Origin: Steroidobacteraceae bacterium
Lineage (GTDB): Bacteria > Pseudomonadota > Gammaproteobacteria > Steroidobacterales > Steroidobacteraceae
Length of the DNA stretch: 59,940 nucleotides
Reading direction: 5' to 3'
Assembly (NCBI GenBank): GCA_022865595.1
Contig: JALHTE010000184.1
Coordinates: 1 to 59,940 of the forward strand
This document shows, in pieces, positions 3,416 through 7,161 of this stretch (position 1 is its first letter; each line of letters opens with the position of its first letter). The translations under genes were made by a program, and so were the position numbers. The notes under the pieces are model-generated. The model was not told the DNA's origin. It was given only the letters and a program-made list of their open reading frames with translations, and did not search any database.

Positions 3416-4582
3416 TCAAGCCGCGCGACCCGCAGCTGCCAGACCCTGCTCCAGGTCGGCAACCAGATCCGCGCCTTCCTCGATACCGATCGAAAGCCTG
3501 AGCAAGGTCTCCGAGATACCGGCGCGCTCGCGCGCCGCAGCGTCCATTGCCGCGTGCGTCATGCTGGCCGGGTGCGCGACCAGGCTTTCCACTCCACCCA
3601 GGGACTCGGCGAGTGAGAACAACTCCAGGGAGCCAAGCAGCGCCTTGACGTTGTCGACCGTTCCCTTCAGTTCGAAACTCGCCATCGCGCCGTACCCGCT
3701 CTGCTGGGCGCTTGCGATCGCGTGGCCAGGGTGCGACTCGAGCCCCGGGTAATAGACTTTCGATACCGCCGGGTGGCGGACCAGCAGTTCGACGACCTGC
3801 GCGGTGTTCTCGCCGTGGGCGCGCATGCGGGCGTGCAGGGTGCGCATTCCGCGCAGCGTCAGGTAGCTGTCAAACGGAGCGCCTGTCACGCCGGTGCAGT
3901 TGGCCCACCACGCGAGCTGCTCGTGCAACTCTCGCCTGGCTGCGACGACGGCACCGCCGACCACGTCGCTGTGGCCGTTCAGGTACTTGGTGGTCGAGTG
4001 CACGACCACGTCGGCACCAAGTGCGATCGGCCTCTGCCACACCGGGGAGAGGAAAGTATTGTCTGCGATCACCAGCGCGCCGGCCTCGTGCGCTGCCGCC
4101 GCTGCAGCGGCCAGGTCCACGATCCTGAGCAGCGGATTGCTCGGCGTCTCGATCCAGACGAGCGCCGGCCCGGATGCCAGCGCGTCCTGCAGCACACCCG
4201 CATCCTGGAAATCGACGAACCGCACGTCCAGCGAGCCACGCTCGCGGAGTGCGTTGAAGAGCCGGTAGGTGCCGCCGTAGCAATCGTGCGGAACCACCGC
4301 CACCTGGCCCGGCCGGAACAGCTGGGTGACCAGCGAGACCGCGGCCATCCCTGAGGAGGTGACGACCGCGCCCGCCCCTCCCTCCAGGTCGGCCAGCGCG
4401 TCGGCGAGCGCGTCGCGCGTCGGGTTGCCGGACCGCGAGTAGTCGTAGGCGCGCTTCTCGCCATAGCCGGCGAACGCGAACGTGGAAGTCAGGTGGATCG
4501 GCGGCACCACGGCCCCGAACTGCGTATCGGATTCCAGCGCCGCGCGCACCGTGCGGGTCTTCTGCGTCGTTTGTTTGCTCAT
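3416..4582 (-). CDS. metB: cystathionine gamma-synthase (trans-sulfuration PLP enzyme)
   Basis: PLP enzyme of the Cys/Met metabolism family, expected to join an activated homoserine with cysteine to give cystathionine. The 388 residues align closely with E. coli MetB from the start (VVPPIHLTSTF, AYDYSRSGNPTRD, LEGGAGAVVTSSGM). The PLP lysine is Lys199 in HSTTKYLNGHSD. It lies two bases after metX on the same strand, which fits an acyl-homoserine producer and user in one operon under the SAM riboswitch. Family members can act as cystathionine gamma-lyase or O-acylhomoserine sulfhydrylase. The MetB assignment rests on the N-terminal similarity and the partner gene. Confidence 0.88.
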   Translation of the reverse strand: MSKQTTQKTRTVRAALESDTQFGAVVPPIHLTSTFAFAGYGEKRAYDYSRSGNPTRDALADALADLEGGAGAVVTSSGMAAVSLVTQLFRPGQVAVVPHDCYGGTYRLFNALRERGSLDVRFVDFQDAGVLQDALASGPALVWIETPSNPLLRIVDLAAAAAAAHEAGALVIADNTFLSPVWQRPIALGADVVVHSTTKYLNGHSDVVGGAVVAARRELHEQLAWWANCTGVTGAPFDSYLTLRGMRTLHARMRAHGENTAQVVELLVRHPAVSKVYYPGLESHPGHAIASAQQSGYGAMASFELKGTVDNVKALLGSLELFSLAESLGGVESLVAHPASMTHAAMDAAARERAGISETLLRLSIGIEEGADLVADLEQGLAAAGRAA

Positions 4583-4584
4583 TT

Positions 4585-5631
4585 TCAGTCCAGGGCTTGC
4601 GCGAAAACGTCGCGCAGCACGTCGGTCTCCTTCAGGAATGCGTCGTGGCCATAAAGCGAACTGATCTCGACCAGCCGGCAGTTGCCTGCCAGGCGGTCGC
4701 GCAGTTCGCGCATGTCGGAAAGCGGCACCAGCTGGTCCTCCACCACGGCGACCAGAGTCACGGGCACGTTGATTGCCGCCGGATCGACGCGATGCAGGTC
4801 GATCGACTCGGACAGGCAGACGAAGGCCTCGGGCCGGTACTGTGCCGCATAGGCCTCACCGCGCGCAAAGAGGTAGGACTCCACTGGAAAGCGGAAGCCT
4901 TGCGTCGTCTGCTCGGGAGGACCGGAAAATCGCTCATCGAATTCACGTGACGAACGGTAAGTTGCCATCGCGAGCGCGCGCGCTAATGCCAGGCCGCGCT
5001 GTCCCTCGCCGTGGCCGAGCGCATAGCGCACAAACGCGCGCTGCACGCTGCGCCAGGCCGTGGACATCGGGTGCGTCCGGTGAGCGGCGCTGATCACGAC
5101 CGCGTGCCGCAGTCGCGCCGGATGCCGCTCGGCGAGTGCCAGCGCCACCATCCCGCCGTAAGAGGCACCGATGCAACCGTGCAGCTGCTCGATGCCGAGA
5201 TGGCCCATCAGGCCCACGATCATCGCCGCCTGGTCATAGGCGCTGACGGTCGGAAAGGCCTCCCCCGCCCCGGGGCCCGAGGTCGAGTGGCTGCCGCCAA
5301 GGAAGTCGATGCCGAGCACTCTGTATCGGTCGGTATCCAGCGCCCTGCCCGGCCCGATGCTTTCTTCCCACCAGCCGACGGGCTCGCCCGGCAGGCCGAA
5401 CACGTGCCGCCCGGCCGAGATGCCGCCGAGGACCGCGACCACCGGCGCCCCTGTTCGGCCGGCCAGGCGGTAGGCGACATCGACGGCCCCGAGACTGCCG
5501 CCGAAATACAGCGGAAACGTACCTGCGAGCCGCTGCACGGCGCTCACGCACTGGTACCCATCGGGTACTCTTCCGACGGGCAAACTCGAATCGGCTGCAG
5601 CACTGGGCGACATGTCGCGAACGTACTCCAT
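4585..5631 (-). CDS. metX: homoserine O-acyltransferase, MetX-type alpha/beta-hydrolase
   Basis: Activates homoserine by transfer of an acyl group (acetyl or succinyl), the first step specific to methionine synthesis. The protein has an alpha/beta-hydrolase fold. The nucleophile elbow GASYGG places Ser157, the acid is the Asp in EDQLVP and the base the His in YGHDAFL. The ORF track starts at 5775, but residues before MEYVRD are low-complexity Arg/Ser/Cys and would overlap the riboswitch aptamer. ATG at 5631 has an AGGTCG ribosome-binding site; ATG at 5613 is an alternative. Sequence alone does not settle acetyl versus succinyl specificity. Relatives in Xanthomonadales are reported to use succinyl-CoA. 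The unusually long gap to the riboswitch (105 bases) may be the expression platform. Confidence 0.85.
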   Translation of the reverse strand: MEYVRDMSPSAAADSSLPVGRVPDGYQCVSAVQRLAGTFPLYFGGSLGAVDVAYRLAGRTGAPVVAVLGGISAGRHVFGLPGEPVGWWEESIGPGRALDTDRYRVLGIDFLGGSHSTSGPGAGEAFPTVSAYDQAAMIVGLMGHLGIEQLHGCIGASYGGMVALALAERHPARLRHAVVISAAHRTHPMSTAWRSVQRAFVRYALGHGEGQRGLALARALAMATYRSSREFDERFSGPPEQTTQGFRFPVESYLFARGEAYAAQYRPEAFVCLSESIDLHRVDPAAINVPVTLVAVVEDQLVPLSDMRELRDRLAGNCRLVEISSLYGHDAFLKETDVLRDVFAQALD

Positions 5632-5736
5632 CGGCGACCTGTCTATGGGCCGCCCAGCAAGCTTCGAGACTCGCGTGGAGCACGATGGTCGCCACGACCG
5701 ACATCCCCGGCAGGAACCGGAGCAGCTTCGCGGCAA

Positions 5737-5846
5737 CTCATCTGTCGGTGGACCGTGTCCCCGTGGAGTTGGCACCTTTTCGGGCGGGTTGGTCCCGACG
5801 GTTGCCCCGGCTTCAAAGGGCCATTCCCTCAGCCGGTCTCGATGAG
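5737..5846 (-). promoter_or_regulatory. SAM-I (S-box) riboswitch controlling metX-metB
   Basis: Read on the minus strand, a P1 helix closes CTCATC with GATGAG at the two ends. Inside are the SAM-I core blocks in order: ATCGAGA, GGCTGAGGGAATGGCCC (the kink-turn and P2), TGAAGCC, GGCAACC, and AAAGGTGCCAACTCC. This is an almost complete match to the SAM-I consensus, which binds S-adenosylmethionine and turns off methionine genes. The aptamer lies in the 5' leader of metX, just after a sigma-70-like promoter. No poly-U terminator follows, so control is probably on translation or by Rho. Confidence 0.95.
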
Positions 5847-5853
5847 CGCGCGA

Positions 5854-5883
5854 AGTTTAGGTGGCACCGGCTCGGAGCGTCAA
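5854..5883 (-). promoter_or_regulatory. sigma-70 promoter for the metX-metB transcript
   Basis: On the minus strand, TTGACG (5883-5878) and TAAACT (5859-5854) are separated by 18 bases. This places the start of transcription just before P1 of the SAM-I aptamer, as expected for a riboswitch leader. Confidence 0.75.
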
Positions 5884-5910
5884 GGCAAAGGGCTTGCCCC
5901 GGTCGGGACG

Positions 5911-5940
5911 ATGTATTAATGTAGTAGCACATTATTACAT
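5911..5940. promoter_or_regulatory. 30-bp palindromic operator in front of the his operon regulator
   Basis: The arms ATGTATTAATGT and ACATTATTACAT are inverted repeats with 11 of 12 positions matching, separated by AGTAGC. The site ends 11 bases before the ATG of the TrpR-like regulator that heads the his operon. It overlaps the likely -10 region (TTGCCC at 5894-5899, 17 bases, TAATGT at 5917-5922). Position and symmetry fit autorepression of the operon by the encoded TrpR-family dimer. That the TrpR-like protein is the one that binds is an inference. Confidence 0.7.
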
Positions 5941-5951
5941 TGGATCACCCC

Positions 5952-6260
5952 ATGAAGACCCATCGCGGCATCTCGCAGCGGCAGGAAGCCGCCGCTGAAC
6001 GCTCGCTGTACCAGGCCGTGCTGACGCTTCGCACCATCGAGGAGTGCCGCGACTTCTTCCGCGACCTGTGCACGCCGGCCGAGCTGCAGGCCCTGACCGA
6101 CCGCTGGAACGTAGTCGGGCTTCTGCAACAGGGCATTCCCTATCGCGAGATCCACCGCGTCAGCGGCGTGAGCGTCACGACGATCGGCCGGGTCGCGCGC
6201 TACCTGGGCGGCGGCAACGGCGGCTACTCGCTGGCCGCCCGCCGGCTGTCGGAGCGCTGA
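5952..6260 (+). CDS. TrpR-family (YerC/YecD-type) regulator, probable his operon repressor
   Basis: A 102-residue all-helical DNA-binding protein of the TrpR/YerC/YecD family. The helix-turn-helix is visible from about residue 55 (GIPYREIHRVSGVSVTTIGR), preceded by the family block RDLCTPAELQALTDRW. The track opens at TTG 5940, inside the operator palindrome; ATG at 5952 is the natural start. The gene ends one base before hisG, so it is the first gene of the his operon. Relatives in this position are considered histidine-responsive repressors (called HisR in regulon reconstructions). The corepressor here is inferred, not seen. The 12-bp-arm palindrome immediately upstream is the likely target. 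Confidence 0.85.
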   Translation: MKTHRGISQRQEAAAERSLYQAVLTLRTIEECRDFFRDLCTPAELQALTDRWNVVGLLQQGIPYREIHRVSGVSVTTIGRVARYLGGGNGGYSLAARRLSER

Positions 6261-6261
6261 A

Positions 6262-7161
6262 ATGGAACGCAAACAGCGCCTGCGCATCGCGATCCAGAAA
6301 TCCGGGCGGCTCACCGAGGATTCGCTGGACCTGCTGCAGCGTTGCGGCCTCAAGTACAGCCGCGGCAAGGACCAGCTGATGTGCTACGGGGAGAACATGC
6401 CGCTCGACGTGCTGTTCGTCCGCGACGACGACATCCCCGACCTGGTCCAGGAAGACGTCTGCGACCTCGGCATCGTCGGGATCAACGTCATCGACGAGAA
6501 GCGGCTGGCGATGTCGGCGCGCGGCACCGAGCCCGGCTTCGAACTCGTGCAGCGCATGGACTTCGGGCGCTGCAGGCTGTCCATTGCGGTGCCGGACGAC
6601 TTTGCCTACAAGGGCCTGCCGAGCATTGCCGGCCGGCGCATCGCAACGACCTATCCCAACACGCTCGCGCGCTTCCTGCGCGAAAATTCGCTCGAGGCCG
6701 AGATCGTGACCCTGTCCGGGGCCGTCGAAATCGCCCCGCGCCTCGGCCGTGCCGACCTCATCTGCGACCTGGTGTCGACCGGGTCCACGCTCTCGGCCAA
6801 CCACCTCCGGGAAGTCACGACCGTGCTCGAGAGCGAAGCCGCACTGATCCGCACGCCGGTGCCCCTGCCGGACGAAAAAGCCGACTGGGTGCGCCGGTTG
6901 CTGCTGCGCATCGACGGCGTGCAGCAGGTTCGCGAGAGCAAGTACATCATGCTGCACGCGCCCCGCTCGGCGCTTGAAGAGATCAGGAAGCTGTTGCCGG
7001 GCAGCGAATCCCCGACGGTCATCCCGCTCGAGGGGCCGGGCAACAAGGTTGCCATCCACGCCGTGTGCCGCGAGAACGTATTCTGGGAGACCCTCGAGAG
7101 CCTCAAGGCGGCCGGAGCCAGCGCGGTGCTGGTCCTGCCGGTGGAGAAGATGCTGGCATGA
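6262..7161 (+). CDS. hisG: ATP phosphoribosyltransferase, long form
   Basis: Catalyses the first committed step of histidine synthesis, condensing ATP and PRPP. The 299 residues mean it is the long (HisG-L) type with a C-terminal ACT-like regulatory domain (from about residue 225, with LLPGSESPTVIPLEG) for histidine feedback. A HisZ partner is therefore not needed, and none is present. The N-terminal RLRIAIQKSGRLTEDS and the PRPP-binding block LVSTGSTLSANHL near residue 175 are visible. It overlaps hisD by four bases (ATGA). Confidence 0.97.
   Translation: MERKQRLRIAIQKSGRLTEDSLDLLQRCGLKYSRGKDQLMCYGENMPLDVLFVRDDDIPDLVQEDVCDLGIVGINVIDEKRLAMSARGTEPGFELVQRMDFGRCRLSIAVPDDFAYKGLPSIAGRRIATTYPNTLARFLRENSLEAEIVTLSGAVEIAPRLGRADLICDLVSTGSTLSANHLREVTTVLESEAALIRTPVPLPDEKADWVRRLLLRIDGVQQVRESKYIMLHAPRSALEEIRKLLPGSESPTVIPLEGPGNKVAIHAVCRENVFWETLESLKAAGASAVLVLPVEKMLA

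Follow-up and report, generated by a model that had tools for sequence, protein, structure and literature searches.

A SAM-I riboswitch upstream of metX-metB in a Steroidobacteraceae bacterium, common in its lineage and predicted to act on translation initiation

The leader of the metX-metB operon in the window (the whole stretch of 59,940 nucleotides that was analysed, from a Steroidobacteraceae bacterium, contig JALHTE010000184.1) carries a real riboswitch of a kind usual in its lineage. By its sequence it is a genuine riboswitch in front of two methionine-making genes, and it would be expected to sense SAM. It probably represses both genes at translation initiation, with closure of helix P1 displacing an antisequestor segment (e1) and an anti-Shine-Dalgarno segment then covering the Shine-Dalgarno (SD) sequence of metX.

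Aptamer, promoter and operon

The locus comprised the following features:

5854..5883, minus strand: sigma-70-like promoter, TTGACG (5883-5878), 18 nt, TAAACT (5859-5854), directly upstream of the aptamer
5735..5848, minus strand: SAM-I (S-box) riboswitch aptamer, P1-P4 (RF00162, 75.4 bits, full length)
5626..5629, minus strand: Shine-Dalgarno sequence GGAG of metX, aligned in same-genus relatives, with a predicted accessibility shift with P1
4585..5613, minus strand: metX, homoserine O-acyltransferase (O-succinyltransferase type), ATG at 5613-5611 (NF006449, 354 bits, cut-off 296)
3416..4582, minus strand: metB, cystathionine gamma-synthase (TIGR02080, 591 bits, cut-off 505)

A preliminary description, made from the letters of the DNA, had placed a SAM-I element with a full core at 5737-5846 on the minus strand, and had proposed an Infernal search with RF00162. 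That search (cmscan, Rfam 15) was run on the whole window and gave a single SAM-I match, at 5848-5735 on the minus strand, so that the earlier coordinates were correct to within 2 bases. The score was above the gathering cut-off (75.4 bits versus 44.4; E 6.5e-16), and the model was covered in full (positions 1-108 of 108) by a match that was not truncated. Only the top-scoring model of clan CL00012 was retained in the output, and at this locus it was RF00162 rather than the SAM-IV or SAM-I/IV variant; SAM-II (RF00521) was absent among the matches at the locus. Alignment to RF00162 and inspection of the sequence showed an intact SAM-I core, with P1-P4, the kink-turn, GGCAACC, UGAAGCC and GGUGCCAA. 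The letters GGCAACC and AAAAGGTGCCAACTCC were found on the minus strand as described, and the two P1 strands were complementary (GCTCATC/GATGAGT). No other SAM-I was present in the genome, which gave a total of one for the assembly.

The aptamer lies in the 5' leader of the methionine genes metX and metB, which follow it on its own strand. The promoter ends 5 bases upstream of the aptamer, and a consensus scan found one promoter-like site near the aptamer where 0.1 were expected in shuffled sequence. A TTGAC-TA promoter-like pair was found directly upstream in 116/128 representative leaders and in none of the shuffled leaders. Both protein assignments scored above their cut-offs and only 2 bases separate the metX stop from the metB start, which upheld the operon proposed earlier. 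The start of metX is most likely the ATG at 5613-5611, because this was the only start common to the genus and the upstream reading frame diverges. A longer open reading frame from 5775 in a mechanical list passes through the aptamer and was rejected as metX. The spacing between the metX SD and the ATG is long, at 12 nt.

On the other side of the promoter, a TrpR-family gene (YerC/YecD, TIGR02531) at 5940-6260 on the plus strand heads the adjacent his operon, with hisG next at 6262, and is possibly a repressor of histidine genes. AT-rich inverted repeats (ATGTAATAATGTGCTACTACATTAATACAT) at 5910-5945 lie in the promoter of this gene and turn up again ahead of its counterparts in relatives.

MetJ was not found in the genome (PF01340, no match), and the E. 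coli control was positive; the preliminary description, which had seen no MetJ box, was right on this point. The riboswitch had also been described as standing alone. This applied to the metX-metB operon and failed for the genome, as a SAH riboswitch (RF01057, 61 bits) was found between metK and ahcY (locus L112, G000:C268:13554-13632, minus strand). The two may divide the labour, with SAM-I on homocysteine synthesis and the SAH switch on the SAM cycle.

Occurrence in Steroidobacterales

The preliminary description had considered SAM-I taxonomically unexpected here, a view that the survey of relatives and a precedent from Xanthomonas (PMC7270179) did not support. SAM-I was found in 174/296 genomes sampled from the order Steroidobacterales, to which the family Steroidobacteraceae belongs; the leader DNA was matched in 189/217 genomes of the family, and SAM-I was upstream in 78 of the 80 nearest metX loci. 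SAM-I is thus the rule in the family and common in the order, and on these three counts the riboswitch is a trait of the lineage rather than a stray acquisition. It is rare in the gammaproteobacterial class beyond Steroidobacterales: a class-wide sample had SAM-I in 10/369 genomes, four of them from Steroidobacterales, leaving 6/~365 elsewhere. Methionine control in this large gammaproteobacterial order, most of which is uncultured, thus normally relies on SAM-I, and to label SAM-I as a Firmicutes device is misleading.

The nearest named MetX homologues came from Steroidobacteraceae (Steroidobacter, Povalibacter) and from gammaproteobacterial MAGs. One of the 80 nearest metX loci, L072, had no SAM-I match in a record with only ~320 bases upstream. 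A Gemmatimonadetes MAG whose metX is related (L111) had SAM-II at 2606-2683 in the position of SAM-I, which exchanges one riboswitch class for another in front of homologous genes.

The first gene behind the leader was metX in 145/216 collected leaders and metB in 69/216. The same kind of riboswitch stood directly before metB in L002-L010, L023, L024 and other leaders of another family of the order. One copy per genome was usual, and two genomes of the order sample (G129 and G032) had two SAM-I matches each. A metX of the window type with SAM-I was present in a MAG labelled Thermoanaerobaculia (Acidobacteriota; L109), reflecting either horizontal transfer or a binning error. Two further records of this gammaproteobacterial metX, L059 and L060, come from MAGs under the names Candidatus Planktophila lacus and Janthinobacterium lividum, which look wrong.

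Expression platform and mode of action

The following elements were assigned between the aptamer and metX:

5835..5847, minus strand: a1, P1 5' strand plus J1/2 (GCUCAUCGAGACC), paired with e1 in the free minimum-energy fold; complementarity enriched across the clade
5688..5737, minus strand: helix after P1, GUUGCCGC (5737-5730) with GUGGCGAC (5695-5688), closing a hairpin in both predicted states and in the genus consensus fold
5676..5683, minus strand: candidate anti-Shine-Dalgarno GUGCUCCA, complement of UGGAGUAC (5630-5623), read from the sequence
5661..5670, minus strand: e1 (antisequestor), GUCUCGA-AGC, complement of UCGAGAC and GCU in the P1 5' strand; paired with a1 in the free fold

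The genus consensus fold is a hint only, as its five members are too few and are misaligned near the start codon. The e1 letters GAGUCUCGA were retained in 4/5 aligned genus members.

Under the preferred model, when SAM is scarce e1 would pair with the P1 5' strand, P1 would be open and the metX SD would be accessible. Binding of SAM would close P1 and displace e1, and the downstream leader would refold so that the anti-SD segment, probably GUGCUCCA, covers GGAG and metX is untranslated. Translation of metB would also be prevented, through its tight spacing to metX. The model builds on what was observed, namely the aptamer, the operon, the lack of a terminator and a set of complementarities that relatives conserve; we infer that SAM binds, which way it acts, that translation is coupled and exactly which segment pairs with the SD.

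In the free fold of the window the P1 5' strand paired with e1, part of the P1 3' strand paired with the leader, and the probability of P1 was 0.001. With the effect of SAM modelled only as enforced P1, and with fold energies that are unreliable for G+C-rich RNA, the predicted unpaired probability of GGAG fell from 0.71 in the free state to 0.28, at a cost of 5.0 kcal/mol. Among shuffled leaders, an SD drop as large was seen in 1/100 and a P1 cost as large in 5/100. Close relatives shifted likewise (SD unpaired from 0.75 to 0.07 in L033, and from 0.38 to 0.01 in L032). The SD of the window is therefore predicted by the folding model to be sequestered when P1 is formed. The SD region was complementary to the leader beyond shuffles (z -1.92, p 0.016), and its partner within the leader is likely to be GUGCUCCA (5683-5676); the enrichment for the P1 5' strand by itself had p 0.066. 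A Xanthomonas-like anti-AUG element was considered for the window and rejected, as the predicted unpaired probability of the AUG was 0.55 in the free state and 0.66 with P1, which is no greater burial.

SAM might instead act on transcription, with the bound leader exposing a Rho-utilisation site or forming a non-canonical terminator so that the transcript ends before metX. A scan found no intrinsic terminator, with 0 terminator-like sites (hairpin with T-run) within 5500-6000, and a T-tract between aptamer and start was seen in only 9/128 representative leaders. Rho sites can escape detection in sequence, and SAM-I_Xcc, the riboswitch of the Xanthomonas campestris met operon, has a weak transcriptional effect, with repression of ~24% in a transcriptional fusion against ~98% in a translational fusion (PMC7270179). 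The complementarity to the SD was nevertheless conserved and covarying in relatives, and action on transcription is considered unlikely.

The platform was examined across relatives in 123 representative leaders, where its complementarity to the SD region and to 12 segments of the aptamer was compared with that in 60 dinucleotide shuffles of each. Complementarity of the platform was clearly enriched for the P1 5' strand (mean z -1.12), P1/J1-2 (-0.76) and the ACUCC+ segment (J3/4-P4; -0.93), and for the SD region (-1.24). For the nine other aptamer segments the mean z was between -0.18 and +0.17. By this sequence measure, the platform of the clade exceeds shuffles in its complementarity to just three targets: the P1 5' strand, the ACUCC segment preceding P4, and the SD region. 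The classical antisequestor use of the P1 3' strand was not supported, being unenriched across the clade (mean z +0.08). Each platform bound its own partners better than partners swapped in from other genomes, with differences of -0.70 (a1), -0.84 (a2) and -1.75 kcal/mol (SD), compared with -0.08 to -0.36 for three controls; the representative leaders share ancestry, so that t values overstate the significance. Enforcing P1 lowered SD accessibility by more than 0.1 in 25% of 112 leaders and raised it in 5%, compared with 13% and 18% in shuffles. Over the relatives the mean SD unpaired probability was 0.23 free and 0.15 with P1, and the modelled change was small in most.

In the commonest type of platform the two segments lay side by side with a nested arrangement (L002, for instance, has UCCGCAGGG and then CGAUGAG), and both could therefore pair with the aptamer simultaneously. 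We tentatively propose, with slightly less than even confidence, that the Steroidobacterales platform complements two aptamer strands, CUCAUCGAGACC (P1/J1-2) and CUCCUGCGG (J3/4-P4), in an order permitting simultaneous pairing, and that this nested antisequestor would unzip the SAM site and compete with an anti-SD that overlaps that same segment. Hundreds of uncultured gammaproteobacteria would then have in common a distinct SAM-I platform, of which the window, with the P1 5' strand half alone, would be a reduced example. This nested use of two aptamer strands in relatives, a computational result with a significance that common ancestry inflates, appears to be undescribed in the literature accessible to us. 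Pairing of the ACUCC segment by the platform of the window itself was unsupported (z +0.63), and in relatives such as L033 it extends to at least 9 bp.

The loss of the ACUCC pairing, part of the platform of relatives, might indicate that the window holds a decayed or unregulated relic which scores as SAM-I and no longer switches. Against this, the RF00162 match is full-length with its core letters intact, the order of promoter, aptamer and operon is kept across the family, and the SD response to P1 in the window exceeds 99% of shuffles. A relic is considered highly improbable.

Comparison with known systems

Characterised SAM-I members are mostly found in Firmicutes and work through intrinsic terminators. 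The window resembles RF00162 SAM-I in its full aptamer architecture, its core letters and its place before methionine biosynthesis genes, and differs from most characterised members in having no intrinsic terminator. SAM-II (SAM_alpha, RF00521) also occurs before metX. Its placement, as in L111, is like that of the window, but its aptamer fold is unrelated.

SAM-I was recorded in gammaproteobacteria in 2007 and was thought to be sporadic (PMC2258182), and a proteobacterial survey of methionine regulation did not include SAM-I in its scan (PMC4239095). A 2004 study described S-boxes before metX and metIC of Geobacter and Desulfuromonas (PMC545781). They are like the window in being proteobacterial SAM-I before metX, but a strong hairpin and poly(T) come after them, which implies attenuation of transcription, whereas no terminator was found at the locus in the window.

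SAM-I_Xcc, characterised in 2020 as a terminator-free translational switch (PMC7270179), was the only bench-studied example of this type found in the literature searched. The leaders collected here offer a naturally occurring panel of a few hundred SAM-I switches, predicted to be translational, in which covariation can reveal how a terminator-free aptamer communicates with the SD. One collected leader, L229, is presumably a Xanthomonas-type sequence, as it fits the published numbering (AUGGC at 172-176, CC at 181-182; PMC7270179), and its platform contains CUCGAUGG, a complement of the P1 5' strand CCAUCGAG.

The anti-SD of SAM-I_Xcc binds uncharged initiator tRNA (PMC7270179). The leader of the window might likewise be a dual sensor, in which this tRNA would bind the anti-SD and free the SD. 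Its anti-SD contains UGCUCC, the same letters as the tRNA-binding anti-SD of SAM-I_Xcc as located by its numbering, and the initiator tRNA of this genome has, in GUGGAGCA, a complement of UGCUCCAC. The genus does not conserve the segment, however (GUAGCUCC, GCAGCUCC, GCGCUCGC), which led us to reject tRNA sensing by simple complementarity; most of the order carries CUCCGCAGG-type elements instead, and the authors of the SAM-I_Xcc study state that simple base pairing is not how the tRNA is recognised (PMC7270179). A dual sensor is judged to be quite improbable.

For repression at translation initiation, SAM-I_Xcc, which controls a homologous operon by translation (PMC7270179), was counted as supporting analogy. 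Both riboswitches are gammaproteobacterial, precede a homoserine O-acyltransferase-metB operon and are terminator-free, and both have predicted SD sequestration and a platform segment complementary to the P1 5' strand. The operon of the window differs in lacking hom, its e1 does not overlap an anti-AUG element, and the remaining sequence of its expression platform is unlike that of SAM-I_Xcc. The tRNA-binding segment is not conserved in the genus of the window, where tRNA sensing is putative.
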